DNA of 44,018 nucleotides, taken from Butyrivibrio sp. Lineage in GTDB: Bacteria > Bacillota > Clostridia > Lachnospirales > Lachnospiraceae. Under the pieces are notes generated by a model. That model had not been told where the DNA came from. It saw only the letters and a list, made by a program, of their open reading frames with translations, and made no database searches. Both the position numbers and the translations under genes were made by a program. The stretch's first letter is position 1. Each line of letters begins with the position of its first letter. Of the stretch, positions 31,707 to 37,847 are shown in pieces. The DNA lies in NCBI GenBank assembly GCA_017413105.1, contig JAFPVA010000047.1, forward strand, positions 1-44,018, written 5' to 3'.

Positions 31707-33506
31707 TCATGGAGTAAGATCAAGGATTCGGTGGTCATCTTCTTTGATAGCTAGAGTCAGGACATTGAGGCCCATCATGTTCTGATAATTAACCTCATCA
31801 GCTATTTTCATGACAATTCGGATTCCTATGTTTTTTCCATCCTTTTCATTTTTCACAAGTTCAGCCATTTCTTTGGGGTTAAAGGGAACGCAGTCGTCTT
31901 TTATTCTGAGAACAATATCTCCGTTTTTAAACATCACTATCGTACTTAGTGAATGCTTTTTCCCATCTGCGTTAAAGCCATGTGTCACAACATTTCCGGC
32001 CATTTCTTCAAGACACAGTGCGGCGTAGTAGGAAGGCTTTTTTTCCATGCCATGCCCCATGCAGAAGGACTGAATATCTGCGGAGGCTGCAGATACCTCC
32101 TCCAGGCTCCGAACGGAAATTTCCATTCGGTCCTCTTTTGCAACTCCAAAGTCTGGTGTCAGGAACATCCACTCTTCCATGTTTCTCGGAATTCTTTTCC
32201 AGAAGATCAGGTCATAGACGGGCACGGTAAGCATGGTCATTACAATTCCTATTGGGTTGGACAGCCACACGCCCATGGCCCCCATGACAGGCGCCAAGAT
32301 CAGGGCCGGAATGACCATGAAAAAAAATCCATCGAATATGGACTGGATATTTACAAAAAGGTTATGGCCCGTAGCCTGCAAGTAGTTGGTGAAGATCTGG
32401 CAGATCAGGACTAAGGGAACGCATAGCGAATAGATTATAAACAGCTGATGGCACAGCTGATAAACATTGGAGGTTCTGTCGGGAAAAAAGATAAATACGA
32501 CGAAGCGGGATATCAGCAGCATAACTACTGCAAAGGCGCAGGACACCGCCAAGGCTTTGGTAAAGACCAGCTTCAGAGTATTCTTCATGGAATCTATGTC
32601 TTCTTCTCCCACGAACACGCTGATGAGCATCCTGATAACGGAGCCGTTGCCCAGGCAATAAGCAATCAGGAAACCAGAGACCATATTAAAGGCAGACAGG
32701 GCCGAAAGGCCGTCGTTACCAGCATATTTAAGGAGCACTCTGTTGATGACCATACCCCTGAGCCCCAGGCAAAAGACCAGCATAGCTCCGGGAAAGCCTA
32801 TCTTTACACCCCCGACAAGCTCGCACCACAGGATCTTTTTCACCCCATAGCGAAGCTGCGCTCTGTCGCTGAAATAATAAGGAACCAGGATCAGGAAATA
32901 AACGATGTTACTAATGGAGGTTGCCAGCGCCAGGCCCCGGATTCCCATCTTAAGCATCCCTACAAGGGTGATATCCAAAGTCACATTGGAAATGATCATG
33001 CCTGCAATGCCGATATATCCTCGTTTGCTCTGTCTTTCCATCTGCAAAAAGGCGGCAATCTGCTGAGCCAGCATCATGGGCACAATACCTATAGCGTATC
33101 CCACTATATAAAGGACAAGGCCCTCCTTCAGCTCCTGATTGGCTCCGAGAATATCGGCTATGGGGCCGGGAACAATGAGACTAAGGGTTGTAAGAAAAAG
33201 TCCAACAATGAAAGTCACGGTAAGATTTAGCGAAAAGACGCCTTCAGTTTTTTGAATCTCTCCTCTTCCCATATACCTTCCACAAAGCACGGTTGTTCCA
33301 CCCAGAAGGACTGAACTTATGGCGTTCATGACATTTACCATAGAATAATACAGACCTATGATTCCCACAGCGTTGGCGCCAATATATCTTCCAGCCATGG
33401 TCCCGTCTACGATGGAATTGATAGAACCCATGGCAAATATCAGGATCTGCACCGGCAGCATGGAAAAGAACAACCTGGATATGAGCTTGTCGGAATTAGA
33501 CTTCAT
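31707..33506 (-). CDS. MATE-family transporter fused to an RsbW-like ATP-binding domain
   Basis: 599 residues from the ATG at 33506 (GGAGG six nt upstream; the frame from 33569 adds 21 residues without such a signal). Residues 1 to about 445 are a 12-helix MATE cation-antiporter (FAMGSINSIVDGTMAGRYIGANAVG at the start). The last ~140 residues are a HATPase_c_2 domain as in anti-sigma kinases: N-box CLEEMAGNVVTHGF, G1 KDDCVPFNP (Cys where Gly is usual) and G2 GKNIGIRIVMKIAD. The domain would lie in the cytoplasm and could sense ATP or phosphorylate a partner, coupling transport to signalling; that is inference. Start and terminator suggest a single-gene unit. Confidence 0.88.
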   Translation of the reverse strand: MKSNSDKLISRLFFSMLPVQILIFAMGSINSIVDGTMAGRYIGANAVGIIGLYYSMVNVMNAISSVLLGGTTVLCGRYMGRGEIQKTEGVFSLNLTVTFIVGLFLTTLSLIVPGPIADILGANQELKEGLVLYIVGYAIGIVPMMLAQQIAAFLQMERQSKRGYIGIAGMIISNVTLDITLVGMLKMGIRGLALATSISNIVYFLILVPYYFSDRAQLRYGVKKILWCELVGGVKIGFPGAMLVFCLGLRGMVINRVLLKYAGNDGLSALSAFNMVSGFLIAYCLGNGSVIRMLISVFVGEEDIDSMKNTLKLVFTKALAVSCAFAVVMLLISRFVVFIFFPDRTSNVYQLCHQLFIIYSLCVPLVLICQIFTNYLQATGHNLFVNIQSIFDGFFFMVIPALILAPVMGAMGVWLSNPIGIVMTMLTVPVYDLIFWKRIPRNMEEWMFLTPDFGVAKEDRMEISVRSLEEVSAASADIQSFCMGHGMEKKPSYYAALCLEEMAGNVVTHGFNADGKKHSLSTIVMFKNGDIVLRIKDDCVPFNPKEMAELVKNEKDGKNIGIRIVMKIADEVNYQNMMGLNVLTLAIKEDDHRILDLTP

Positions 33507-33589
33507 AGTAGGCCTCCACTGATCATAGTAGTCGAAGTTTACTAATTCATTATAGCAAATTTCAAGCACCAGATAACCGGCAAAGATGT

Positions 33590-35221: not shown

Positions 35222-36382
35222 TTATTCTTTCATTACTCCATGCACCCCTGCCAGCAGGATCATAAGTACTCCCACCACTGTGAAGCATGCTGAAACACCG
35301 ATACCTGATACATAAGCTGATGCAAACAGGAAGATAACCTCAACAAGATTTACCCCCATGTTGTAGGCTGAAAGAACCTCCGCCCGCTTATCTTCCAGAT
35401 GGTTTTTATCAATCACCTTGTTTTCCATCTCGTCAAATATGTATGCCGGTACTGACACCACAAGAGGAAGAAGCAGCATGATTGGGACGATTATCAGTCG
35501 GATGCTGATTCTTCCAAATATCAACATACACAGCCCGGAAATGATAAATCCGGCTACAAATGTCCTGAAATAGTTCTTTTCTCCAATATGATCCAGGATC
35601 TTCTCTGCAGCCATCTCAATTACTGAGTATCCAAGGATGATAGCAGTCATCCATTCTTCAGAAATGCCAAGACTTTCCAGTTTATCAACATAGAAAAAAT
35701 TGATCAGTATGAAGGAAATACTAACGCAAGCCAGGGTTACCATAATTATTATATTTTCAGCATTAAGCCGAAGAATGAATAATTTATGCTTTCCTGTGTC
35801 CTTCTTGTCGACTGCTTCTTTGGATTTAGCCTTTTCTTTTTCAATCCCGAAACTCAGCGCAACTGCAAAAACGTTCATAACAGCAGTCAGGGCAAGCAAG
35901 CCGACAATCCCAAAGAAGTGGTAAATACCGGCATACATTATGGTACTTACTATGAAGCCGGCCGTACCAAAATTAGAAGTTCTCGCACTTTTTACAACAT
36001 ATTCACCCTCGTCATACCGCTGATACAGATAAGCACTTATGGTTCCGGAAGAAAAGCAGCTTGCAATGCCTTCTACAATAGCCTCTGCTATAAACAGCCA
36101 GTAATTTCGAGTTAAAAAGGCGGTAAGCATCATGCCTCTGGCCAGCAGAAGTGTAACCTGCGATAAAACAATCGTATTTTTATATCCAACCACGTCCGTG
36201 ATCTTCCCGGTTGGTATTTCGCCAAAGAATATTACCAGTGACAATATTGCCTGTAAAACAAAGAACTGATCAAGGCTAATTCCAGCCCGGGTTCTTACTA
36301 ATAGTGCTACCGGTGCAAAGAAAACCAGGCCATTGAAAAGTGATACAAGTTCAAGGTTATCTATATTTAGTTTCTTATTCAT
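35222..36382 (-). CDS. MFS efflux transporter
   Basis: 386 residues with about 12 membrane helices in two halves and a charged central loop (EKEKAKSKEAVDKKDTGKHK, about 185-205). FGEIPTGKITDVVGYKNTIVLSQ carries the GxxxDxxGxKxx motif A. It belongs to the drug-efflux-like MFS proteins of Firmicutes. Start: GGAGG precedes two adjacent ATG codons (36385 and 36382); I take the second because homology starts MNKK. It lies behind an exceptionally long leader with hairpins and overlapping short frames, so expression is probably induced by a translation inhibitor, by analogy with mef, erm and tet(M) control. Substrate unknown. Confidence 0.87.
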   Translation of the reverse strand: MNKKLNIDNLELVSLFNGLVFFAPVALLVRTRAGISLDQFFVLQAILSLVIFFGEIPTGKITDVVGYKNTIVLSQVTLLLARGMMLTAFLTRNYWLFIAEAIVEGIASCFSSGTISAYLYQRYDEGEYVVKSARTSNFGTAGFIVSTIMYAGIYHFFGIVGLLALTAVMNVFAVALSFGIEKEKAKSKEAVDKKDTGKHKLFILRLNAENIIIMVTLACVSISFILINFFYVDKLESLGISEEWMTAIILGYSVIEMAAEKILDHIGEKNYFRTFVAGFIISGLCMLIFGRISIRLIIVPIMLLLPLVVSVPAYIFDEMENKVIDKNHLEDKRAEVLSAYNMGVNLVEVIFLFASAYVSGIGVSACFTVVGVLMILLAGVHGVMKE

Positions 36383-36467
36383 CATCGAATCCTCCAACAA
36401 AAAAGTATGTATTAAAACGTAAAAACTGCCTCGCATACATTTCTGTACGCAAGGCAGTCATATCCAT
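36375..36467 (-). CDS. Leader peptide candidate 2 (30 aa), overlapping the MFS start
   Basis: Starts MDMTALRTEMYARQF. A GAGG lies 10 nt upstream, rather far. The frame runs through the entire attenuator hairpin and its T tract and stops at 36375-36377, past both MFS ATG codons, so a ribosome translating it would disrupt the terminator and deliver itself to the MFS start. Its own ATG overlaps the stop of leader candidate 1 (TGATG). Coding status is inferred from this geometry. Confidence 0.45.
   Translation of the reverse strand: MDMTALRTEMYARQFLRFNTYFFVGGFDDE
36419..36458 (-). terminator. Attenuator terminator in the MFS leader
   Basis: In the RNA, ACUGCCUUGCGUACA pairs with UGUAUGCGAGGCAGU (15 bp including two wobble pairs) around a GAAA tetraloop, followed by UUUUU. 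It lies about 40 nt before the MFS ATG and downstream of the promoter, so it would stop most transcripts unless opened. Confidence 0.8.
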
Positions 36468-36589
36468 CAAAAATAAACCTCATATATAGAAAGAGGAATA
36501 CGAGAGTCCAAGGCAAGCCGGACAACTGACGAATATGATAATCTGACATAAAGCGTACAAAAACAGACCTGCCATGCAGGCAAGAGCAT
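36467..36589 (-). CDS. Leader peptide candidate 1 (40 aa)
   Basis: Starts MLLPAWQVCFCTLYV and ends ...YEVYF with a TGA that overlaps the next ATG. Its first codons lie inside the upstream hairpin (36559-36594), so ribosome occupancy there would change folding. No clear ribosome-binding site precedes it. Coding status is uncertain. Confidence 0.35.
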   Translation of the reverse strand: MLLPAWQVCFCTLYVRLSYSSVVRLALDSRIPLSIYEVYF

Positions 36590-36594
36590 TCTGT
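36559..36594 (-). promoter_or_regulatory. Upstream terminator-like hairpin of the MFS leader
   Basis: ACAGA/UCUGU outer pairing with inner CCUGC-AUG-GCAGG (asymmetric bulge), followed by UUUUUG. Just 3' of it, UUGUACGC can pair with GCGUACAG of the attenuator's 5' arm, giving a plausible alternative (antiterminator) structure. Confidence 0.5.
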
Positions 36595-36667
36595 TTATTA
36601 CTTTTTTGTCAGAAAATCAATGAAGCATTTTTCGCAACCTCTTTTTTATTCTTTGAAAACAGATGAA

Positions 36668-36696
36668 ATTATATCACATCAAATGTGGTTTTTCAA
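36668..36696 (-). promoter_or_regulatory. Promoter of the MFS transcript
   Basis: Minus strand: TTGAAA (rc of 36691-36696), 17 bp, TATAAT (rc of 36668-36673). It predicts a start near 36660 and a leader of about 280 nt. Confidence 0.75.
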
Positions 36697-36780: not shown

Positions 36781-37806
36781 TCATTGTGCCTGCAGCTGCT
36801 CAATCTTGTCCTGCAAACGGTCTATTTCTGCGGAGTATTTCGTATTCCAGTCCGTTCGAAGAAGTTCGATTTGTTTCTTGTAATAGTCTGCGGCCTGTTT
36901 CTTATCTCCCATACGGATACAGCAAAGTGCCATAGCGGCATAGGGATCCGTATAGCGGGGCTTAGGCATACAATCAAATGTCATCTGCCAATACCGGATT
37001 GCCTCTTCATACTCTTCGTGATGGGAAAACGTATTGGCAACGGAAAACAGTACGCTCCAGTCTTCCGGATATCTCTCCACCAGCTTCCGATATGCTTCTT
37101 TTGTTGCTTCAAACCCGTTTTCATATTCCTCAATAAACACCTCGTAGAAGTCATTCAAAGTGTTAGGGTTCTTTTGAACGGACTCCTTCAGAACTTCTCT
37201 TGCCTCCCGAAGTCTGCCGTCATCAATCAGATTGTCCAGCAGATAGAAGTAGATCCGAATATTCTTTGGTTCAGCCCTCAGAATCTTATACAGATCCTCG
37301 ATCAGTTCATGATGATTTGCCGCATCCCAGTCAAAGAGCTTTCCATCGCTGCCGAAGCAGATATTGTTGATATCGCCCTTTTCGTTGGGGCGTAGTTCCA
37401 GCGCCTTTTTCGCACAGCGTACTGCCTTTTTCTTCAGATTCTCTGCCTGATAGCGATAAAGATCTGCCAGCAGAGAGATTGCGTCATGATTCGTCGGATC
37501 CGCTTCCGTTTCGCCAAGAAGGAAGCTTTCCTCATTCTCGAACTCTGCATTTGACAGCACTTTTCCATATTCGATTTTCTTTTCGATGCTCTCGTAACGT
37601 TTCTCGGTGGAGTATTCAAATAGATCATCGATCTGTACTCCAAAGAGAGATGCGATATCCGGGAGCATGGTCATCTCCGGGAGGGAACTGTCTGTCTCCC
37701 ATTTACTGACCGCCTGACTGGTCACTCCCAACTTCTTAGCAACATCCGACTGGGAGAACCCCTTGGAGCGCCTTAGTTCTTTAATCTTCATTCCTATCGT
37801 TTTCAT
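36781..37806 (-). CDS. XRE-family regulator with TPR-like C-terminus
   Basis: 341 residues. The N-terminal Cro/C1-type HTH (IKELRRSKGFSQSDVAKKLGVTSQAVSKWE) is followed by helical repeats typical of TPR (DAISLLADLYRYQAENLKKKAVRCAKKALELRP; WSVLFSVANTFSHHEEYEEAIRYW; PYAAMALCCIRMGDKKQAADYYKKQIELL). This XRE-TPR layout recalls peptide- or stress-sensing regulators common in Clostridia. The start at 37806 is chosen by GGAGG seven nt upstream; the longer frame from 37839 would include the 5' leader. Targets unknown. It is upstream of and in the same direction as the MFS unit but separated from it by a terminator. Confidence 0.88.
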   Translation of the reverse strand: MKTIGMKIKELRRSKGFSQSDVAKKLGVTSQAVSKWETDSSLPEMTMLPDIASLFGVQIDDLFEYSTEKRYESIEKKIEYGKVLSNAEFENEESFLLGETEADPTNHDAISLLADLYRYQAENLKKKAVRCAKKALELRPNEKGDINNICFGSDGKLFDWDAANHHELIEDLYKILRAEPKNIRIYFYLLDNLIDDGRLREAREVLKESVQKNPNTLNDFYEVFIEEYENGFEATKEAYRKLVERYPEDWSVLFSVANTFSHHEEYEEAIRYWQMTFDCMPKPRYTDPYAAMALCCIRMGDKKQAADYYKKQIELLRTDWNTKYSAEIDRLQDKIEQLQAQ

Positions 37807-37847
37807 AAAACCGCCTCCGGTTGTTGTATTCATGATCATGTAAGTTC

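Follow-up and report, generated by a model that had tools for sequence, protein, structure and literature searches.

A candidate ribosome-sensing attenuator of the ABC-F kind in the leader of a transporter gene of the major facilitator superfamily from Butyrivibrio sp.

Background

Attenuators that depend on tiny upstream open reading frames (uORFs) are known from resistance genes of the ABC-F type, and the closest described systems are the leaders of vmlR in Bacillus subtilis (PMC9226507) and cplR in Clostridioides difficile (PMC10201436). The vmlR leader comprises, in order, a uORF for the tripeptide MIN with an anti-antiterminator surrounding it, a small hairpin that serves for pausing, a terminator and a stem that sequesters the Shine-Dalgarno (SD) sequence, while the cplR leader combines a three-codon uORF (MR[I/M]) and an anti-SD element with both transcriptional and translational attenuation. 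For vmlR, the same source reports that a ribosome on the uORF start codon toeprints 16 nt downstream of its A, and that expression is virtually lost when the SD or the start codon of the uORF is changed. Here we describe a leader with similar parts on the minus strand of a 44,018-nt contig from Butyrivibrio sp. (GCA_017413105.1, JAFPVA010000047.1, positions 1 to 44,018; the whole of this stretch is hereafter called the window), where it precedes, on the same strand, a gene for a transporter of the major facilitator superfamily (MFS), hereafter also the pump. We put at roughly 75% the probability that this leader is a ribosome-sensing attenuator of the ABC-F kind that controls the MFS transporter, with translation of the uORF, the stalling agent, the operation of the switch in vivo and the substrate of the pump being presumed.

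The likeness to vmlR and cplR is one of parts. Both of these leaders regulate an ABC-F gene, whereas the window leader precedes an MFS gene; the SD is held by a local stem in vmlR and by the terminator stem itself in cplR, whereas the window leader would use a separate long-range helix; and the NusG pause motif TTNTTT, which follows the small hairpin in vmlR, was not seen when the window leader was read for it. Across the leader family described below, 24 of 85 distinct leaders carry TTNTTT behind the small hairpin, as compared to 10.3 expected, and the small hairpin of the window leader (T1) is perhaps a pause hairpin, analogous to SL-2 of vmlR. Shared with the vmlR/cplR type are a very short uORF that lies near the 5' end and has an SD of its own, an anti-antiterminator overlapping the uORF footprint, a sequestered SD, and a terminator with a mutually exclusive antiterminator (the terminator being missing from 2 of 10 MFS leaders), but the main gene encodes an MFS_1 protein and not an ABC-F ATPase. 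The leader would thus work like ABC-F attenuators and, by its sequence, is homologous to local ones, yet is not an ABC-F attenuator. The class of mechanism is known from vmlR and cplR; new are the cargo and a shared, apparently portable leader.

Ribosome-dependent control of resistance genes is also exerted by erm, mef and tet(M) leaders, through longer leader peptides with stall motifs. An initial annotation, made from the sequence alone, had proposed ribosome-sensing attenuation ahead of the MFS pump and had likened it to these three systems. The proposal itself is well supported by the data presented here, with a three-codon uORF as the likely sensor, but the comparison has to be replaced, as the uORF has only three codons, the residues of which vary across leaders, and its nearest relatives are found among the uORF attenuators of ABC-F genes. 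In the openly accessible literature that we surveyed (including PMC8632094, PMC11109978 and PMC11550727), we found neither this leader family nor a tripeptide uORF ahead of an MFS gene named.

Results and Discussion

Elements of the leader

The elements of the leader and its regulated gene are, in the order of transcription (all on the minus strand):

36668..36696, minus strand: promoter of the sigma-70 type, TTGAAA-17-TATAAT with TG ahead of the -10 box (11 of 12 consensus matches)
36638..36643, minus strand: SD of the uORF, AAGAGG, 9 nt ahead of its ATG (GAGGTTG kept in 10 of 10 leaders)
36617..36628, minus strand: uORF ATG CTT CAT TGA (Met-Leu-His, MLH), proposed ribosome sensor, from sequence reading and orthologue comparison
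36608..36619, minus strand: 5' strand of helix P1, the putative anti-antiterminator, starting at the uORF stop codon (from covariation)
36600..36618, minus strand: anti-SD strand, overlapping the P1 5' strand (from conserved pairing)
36568..36580, minus strand: small hairpin T1, CCTGC-ATG-GCAGG, from a scan (weaker hairpin, GCCTGC-ATG-GCAGG, at about 36581-36567)
36553..36560, minus strand: 5' strand of the antiterminator, UUGUACGC (from conserved pairing)
36536..36547, minus strand: 3' strand of P1, directly behind the antiterminator segment (from covariation)
36443..36450, minus strand: 3' strand of the antiterminator, GCGUACAG, within the 5' arm of the terminator (from conserved pairing)
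36424..36459, minus strand: intrinsic terminator hairpin of 16 pairs with a GAAA loop, followed by TTTTTACGTTTT (U5), from a hairpin scan
36388..36406, minus strand: SD region of the pump, ACUUUUUUGUUGGAGGAUU, held by the anti-SD strand (from conserved pairing)
35222..36385, minus strand: regulated gene for an MFS transporter of 387 aa (Pfam MFS_1, E = 5.5e-19)

The TTG and TGATA of the promoter are conserved in 7 of 7 aligned leaders, and the start of transcription predicted from the -10 box (near 36661) gives a leader of about 276 nt, the RNA of which is more stable than 200 of 200 shuffles (z = -6.1). The strong promoter, the leader of about 280 nt, a terminator-like hairpin and a second terminator with a 15-bp stem, GAAA loop and U5, all listed in the initial annotation, were found again at 36696-36668, with the length just given, at about 36581-36567 and at 36459-36424, respectively, the last now counted as 16 pairs. 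A scan for terminator-like sites over 3 kb on both strands gave 8 sites, as compared to 2.3 expected. For the pump, we found no sequence relative among solved structures at E <= 0.01 and no PADLOC match, and its structure model (mean predicted local distance difference test score, 68.3) is uninformative on the substrate.

The three-codon uORF as the likely sensor

A search of named genomes for the pump gave 10 loci, all from Butyrivibrio or Lachnospiraceae, and matches with E <= 1e-40 were present in 14 of 79 Butyrivibrio genomes, including that of the window. Throughout, same-genome duplicates from two collections were removed before counting. Ten of these 14 genomes have the leader; among the remainder, one contig starts 75 bases ahead of the gene (G472) and one genome has a partial gene (G411).

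The MLH uORF, although missing from the initial list of reading frames, has the best SD of all open reading frames (ORFs) in the leader, and the uORF together with its SD is the best-conserved leader stretch among the MFS orthologues. In all 10 readable leaders (i.e., the window and 9 Butyrivibrio orthologues) the length of three codons is kept, the peptide being MLH, MRR or MRH; the sense codons vary from CTT CAT to AGA CGT or AGA CAT and the stop codon from TGA to TAA, and one leader starts with GTG but still has three codons (GTG AGA CGT TAA). When window-type MFS leaders were considered together with ABC-F leaders of the family described below, all 82 that could be parsed (of 84) had a uORF of 3 or 4 codons, as compared to 11.6% in shuffles, and 24 different peptides were encoded. 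Four codons (MIIR type) were found in 61 of 73 parsed ABC-F leaders; a second MFS type and one kind of exporter have a six-codon uORF (MS[IN]KVF) and a third MFS type has seven codons. A second kind of ABC exporter (L145, L147) keeps the terminator and the GTACGC element, with no ATG at the place of the uORF. Parsing failed in L040, L129, L145, L147 and L159, of which L040 and L129 lie near contig ends, where the fixed offset was unsuited. Overall, these comparisons suggest that the sensor is likely the three-codon uORF, upstream of the ORFs considered previously, which would be translated from its SD.

Alternative helices between the uORF and the pump

Helix P1, which like the SD helix is absent from the initial annotation, was scored for covariation on plain MAFFT alignments. 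With 17 leaders, 82.8% of cells were paired and 8 of 12 pairs showed two-sided changes; with 30 leaders, 86.0% of cells were paired, as compared to 30-46% in slid controls, and again 8 of 12 pairs showed two-sided changes. In 500 shuffles of the 30 leaders, the observed values for paired cells, two-sided cells, pair types and score were never reached, and the observed number of two-sided pairs was reached once. A register-free comparison with mononucleotide shuffles, in which the uORF of L049 was misread, also gave a strong P1 in most leaders. The terminator was 96.9% paired over 8 leaders, with two-sided changes at two pairs.

The antiterminator pairing of UUGUACGC with GCGUACAG, which had been proposed initially as a possibility, occurs at those very places, and a full 8-nt partner ahead of the U run was found in 65 of 82 distinct leaders, as compared to 3.2 expected. 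The 82 are what is left of 106 leaders after 12 without the core by pattern (L040, L045, L046, L127, L129, L130, L161, L162, L165, L166, L168 and L170) and 12 further duplicates were set aside; in L043, the pattern matched in the wrong place. Coordinated variants of the two strands occur (e.g., GTGTATGC with GCATATAT). The initial annotation had suggested covariation analysis of homologous loci as a check; P1 and the terminator show two-sided changes, and the antiterminator helix shows none in the window-type MFS leaders.

The SD of the pump can be paired by the anti-SD strand in all 10 MFS leaders (-18.5 to -30.4 kcal/mol). In this helix, 95.0% of cells were paired, as compared to 47-68% in slid controls, with two-sided changes at two pairs, and in 8 of 10 leaders no more than 7 of 300 dinucleotide shuffles were as good. 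One strand would hence have two jobs, as anti-antiterminator and as anti-SD. Two leaders (L010 and L027) lack the middle part with the terminator and the P1 partner but keep the uORF and the SD helix; their strand reads CUAAC or CUAGC instead of CUGAC, with the SD pairing preserved. These shortened leaders look like a natural separation of both layers of control.

A family of homologous leaders ahead of different genes

We ran a covariance model of 8 MFS leaders on the 79 Butyrivibrio genomes and obtained 19 matches in 16 genomes. Ten were the window-type MFS leaders; ahead of an ABC exporter there were two (E = 6e-8 and 8e-8), and likewise two ahead of the second MFS type (E = 0.001 and 0.014). 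The remaining five had E values of 0.009-0.046, which alone are near chance for 79 genomes, and all five precede ABC-F genes and have three-codon uORFs (MRN, MRR, MRY, MRL and MRI). A model from 17 leaders, run on 299 genomes of the family, gave 25 matches in 24 genomes; besides the window, 24 of 24 have ABC-F as the best same-strand hit downstream, with some of the ABC-F genes broken or cut by the end of the locus. The genome of the window itself has one ABC-F leader (contig C85, uORF MIIR). For five ABC-F representatives, the best NCBIfam hits were all ABC-F models, with one passing the curated cut-off and four, which were read to the locus end, failing it.

As a guard against drift of the models, we also searched 95 kb with a sequence profile of ABC-F leaders only, which consisted of the 22 ABC-F rows of a 30-leader alignment, these rows having been aligned jointly with the MFS rows. 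The sole significant match in the window was the leader (36593-36531, E = 1.7e-5; best value in the reversed control, 0.2), and the profile found all eight full-length MFS leaders with E < 1e-4 and the leaders of the exporter and of the second and third MFS types with E values of 1.4e-6 to 3.7e-4. The ABC-F leaders of Lachnospiraceae (L048-L052, L057-L080 and others) resemble the window leader in their SD, uORF of 3-4 codons, P1, small hairpin, GTACGC element and terminator, and differ from it in that the uORF has mostly four codons and the cargo is ABC-F. The profile matches indicate that the window leader is homologous to these local ABC-F leaders.

With a model from 30 leaders, at least 84 matches in at least 54 of the 79 Butyrivibrio genomes were found; these and the other family counts are lower bounds, as a limited number of first-look candidates was scored per genome. 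To name the cargo, the next genes were compared with seven references and the best hit was taken; among the kinds left over, one member apiece was identified with Pfam and the others were judged by reading. The 84 matches precede genes for ABC-F proteins (56), window-type MFS (10), second MFS (2), third MFS (2), ABC exporters of two kinds (4), GNAT acetyltransferases (5; two by Pfam, the others alike by reading), a uracil-DNA glycosylase family protein followed by an ABC-2 permease (2), an ABC-2 permease (1) and unclear cargo (2). In 4 of the 5 GNAT loci, a gene with a GxxGSGKST motif, which we take to encode a kinase, comes next or after one further ORF. Beyond the genus, the model matched at least 36 of 373 genomes of the order and at least 10 of 371 of the class (eight of the ten in the same family). 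Out of 22 places outside the genus (order and class together), 18 are ahead of ABC-F and 4 are not, two of which (L168 and L170) look like chance. By comparison, the uORF pattern with one mismatch was found in 2 of 397 family genomes, one being that of the window; ABC-F leaders are too divergent for such a pattern, so that models are needed.

These data lead us to favor, by a small margin of confidence, a broader proposal, i.e., that a single homologous leader family acts as a portable ribosome-stall sensor, which Lachnospiraceae, and Butyrivibrio above all, set ahead of unrelated genes (ABC-F, three kinds of MFS, ABC exporters of two kinds, an acetyltransferase operon and others). The result would be a translation-stress regulon that acts in cis only and needs no regulator protein, with a uORF that varies to suit the cargo (MRR/MLH, MIIR, MSIKVF); a second start, which recurs at the terminator foot, may act as a further ribosome checkpoint. 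Such a regulon would extend tiny-uORF attenuators to transporters and enzymes and suggests a single RNA module coordinating a defence set in rumen and gut Lachnospiraceae. The models, together with the positions of uORF and helices, give a sequence handle by which uncharacterised genes that respond to antibiotics could be traced through their leaders.

Two arrangements of family leaders may be recorded here. Tandem MFS genes, each with its own leader of the family, occur in one genome (L044/L054, G398:C1:3119901-3123222), and an acetyltransferase-operon leader (L139) and a window-type MFS leader (L043) lie less than 9 kb apart on one 27-kb contig (G428:C111:7083 and 15746). Spread of the leader on phages or plasmids was considered and rejected (the exact uORF pattern was in 0 viral contigs and blastn with the leader gave no plasmid match).

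Proposed switch

In unstressed cells, ribosomes would finish the Met-Leu-His uORF fast and depart, and the strand behind its stop codon, once free, would pair with the segment behind UUGUACGC to form P1. P1 would prevent the antiterminator, so that the terminator would halt RNA polymerase, and in transcripts that escape, the same strand would pair with the pump SD and block translation. A ribosome held on the first codons (e.g., by a drug that acts against formation of the first peptide bonds) would cover this strand with its footprint; UUGUACGC could then pair with the 5' terminator arm, read-through by RNA polymerase would follow, and the SD would be open. As the strand behind the uORF stop pairs with both the P1 partner and the pump SD, a held ribosome should both antiterminate and free the SD, and we infer that drugs would induce the leader.

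Folding with a ribosome mask, which is a toy model that gave mixed results over all leaders, is partly consistent with this scheme. A ribosome set on codons 1-2 by the vmlR toeprint offset covers most of 36619-36608. For nascent window RNA ending at 36445, free RNA gave probabilities of 0.97 for P1 and 0.01 for the antiterminator, whereas a ribosome on codon 2 shifted them to 0.00 and 0.97; the probability of the SD helix in the complete leader was 0.87 free and 0.41 masked. Of 47 ABC-F leaders, none reached an antiterminator probability of 0.5 when free, whereas 13 did so once a ribosome was placed at the AUG and 38 when codon 4 was covered.

A number of observations weigh against the attenuator model. 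In window RNA only five bases longer (to 36440), the free antiterminator is already at 0.71; with the complete terminator, P1 is back to 1.00 in free RNA and the terminator wins at equilibrium with or without a stalled ribosome, so that the switch must be kinetic. A mask placed elsewhere (+30..+63) also raises the antiterminator in 4 of 4 MFS and 15 of 47 ABC-F leaders, L037 has it at 0.98 when free, and in a first run (shorter RNA, mask to codon 2) a gain of at least 0.3 was seen in just 13 of 64 leaders of all kinds, and a loss of that size in none. With regard to the helices, the antiterminator is nearly invariant in window-type MFS leaders (6 of 8 pairs never vary and none covaries) and its full partner is missing in 17 of 82 distinct leaders, including L044; P1 is poor against shuffles in the register-free comparison in L047 (128/500), L055 (58/500) and L048 (35/500); the SD helix is weak against shuffles in L016 (27/300) and L009 (36/300), and its control slid by one column also has two two-sided pairs. 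Because the leader sequences are related, the shuffle counts overstate independence. Finally, the ABC-F-only profile misses the short MFS leaders (L027, E = 0.052; L010, E = 3.4), and two genomes (G407 and G463; loci L031 and L032) have an MFS orthologue without the leader.

Alternative explanations

The initial annotation had placed the sensor in two overlapping ORFs:

36467..36589, minus strand: first ORF, 40 aa, not conserved and probably a chance frame
36375..36467, minus strand: second ORF, 30 aa from the ATG at 36467, with start and AGG site kept but not the peptide

Both are present in the window, joined by TGATG (36589-36467 and 36467-36375), and the second does run through the terminator and past the start of the pump gene. 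If these ORFs were the sensor or a second sensor, a ribosome at the second ORF would sit at the foot of the terminator and hold it open. Its ATG and AGG-type site, just ahead of the terminator, are indeed kept in 8 of 8 full-length MFS leaders, and in L016 and L033 the ORF runs on in the frame of the pump. However, peptide and end differ, with an unrelated sequence in L035, and conservation of its codons cannot be judged separately, as they overlap the terminator stem. The first ORF is closed in orthologues after 5 codons, with a GTG start (L011, L016), or after 2 codons (L035), or has no start at the matching place (L009, L012, L013, L033), for which reason it was rejected as a sensor. Of the short ORFs and hairpins whose conservation in orthologous leaders had been named as decisive, the terminator and the second start are kept in the 8 full-length leaders, the first ORF and the second peptide are not conserved, and the idea of a signal passed along chained frames is not supported. 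Among 51 distinct ABC-F leaders, 32 have a start at the matching place (23 GTGTGAG and 9 GTATGAG), but 7 have GCGAG without a start codon and 12 no recognisable site; the start is thus recurrent there, not universal. We consider overlapping-ORF sensing unlikely as an account of the switch, although a ribosome starting at the second ORF would hinder the terminator and may provide a possible extra layer. In ABC-F leaders such as L083, L084 and L092, the conserved AGGTCTATTTGT[GA]TGAGTCTATTTTGCG ahead of the terminator repeats GTCTATTT, and the first copy of this repeat, which contains the GTG or ATG in the 32 leaders, could pair with the 3' arm of the terminator.

Three further explanations appear still less probable. 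An attenuator that responds to amino-acid starvation, with translation of the uORF stalled for want of charged tRNA, would fit the few codons of the uORF and the frequency of Arg, yet the residues vary (MLH, MRR, MRH, MIIR, MFIR, MSNKVF and more) while the length stays short, and the cargo is mostly ABC-F or transporters, with no amino-acid biosynthesis gene recognised among it; we regard this as very improbable. As little credence is given to a metabolite riboswitch or protein-binding leader with an incidental small ORF: despite the strong conserved structure, the window has no match in Rfam 15 at the gathering score, the 5 matches of five leader loci at E <= 5 are none of them near it, the uORF is the best-kept feature, and P1 begins at its stop codon. 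Lastly, the pump might have taken over an ABC-F promoter and leader as a relic, with real homology and a switch that no longer works. The two MFS leaders without terminator and P1 partner could be read in this way, but the other eight keep their helices with two-sided changes and even the shortened two keep uORF and SD helix, so that a relic is, in our view, highly unlikely. Ribosome sensing at the three-codon uORF is thus the reading we retain.

Neighbouring genes

Directly upstream of the leader promoter, a gene for an XRE-type helix-turn-helix (HTH) protein with tetratricopeptide repeats is located at 36781-37839 (minus strand); in L010, an HTH gene is apparently upstream on the opposite strand, by reading. 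Leaderless relatives of the window-type MFS (L014, L015, L021, L031 and L032) lie behind the end of a gene with clustered cysteines (CKIGGFCGGGC-like), which presumably resembles a SPASM/radical-SAM protein, and these relatives may serve peptide export. Elsewhere in the window, a 620-aa ORF (31707-33569, minus strand) encodes a MATE efflux domain followed by HATPase_c_2, a histidine-kinase-like ATPase, and looks like an unusual fusion.

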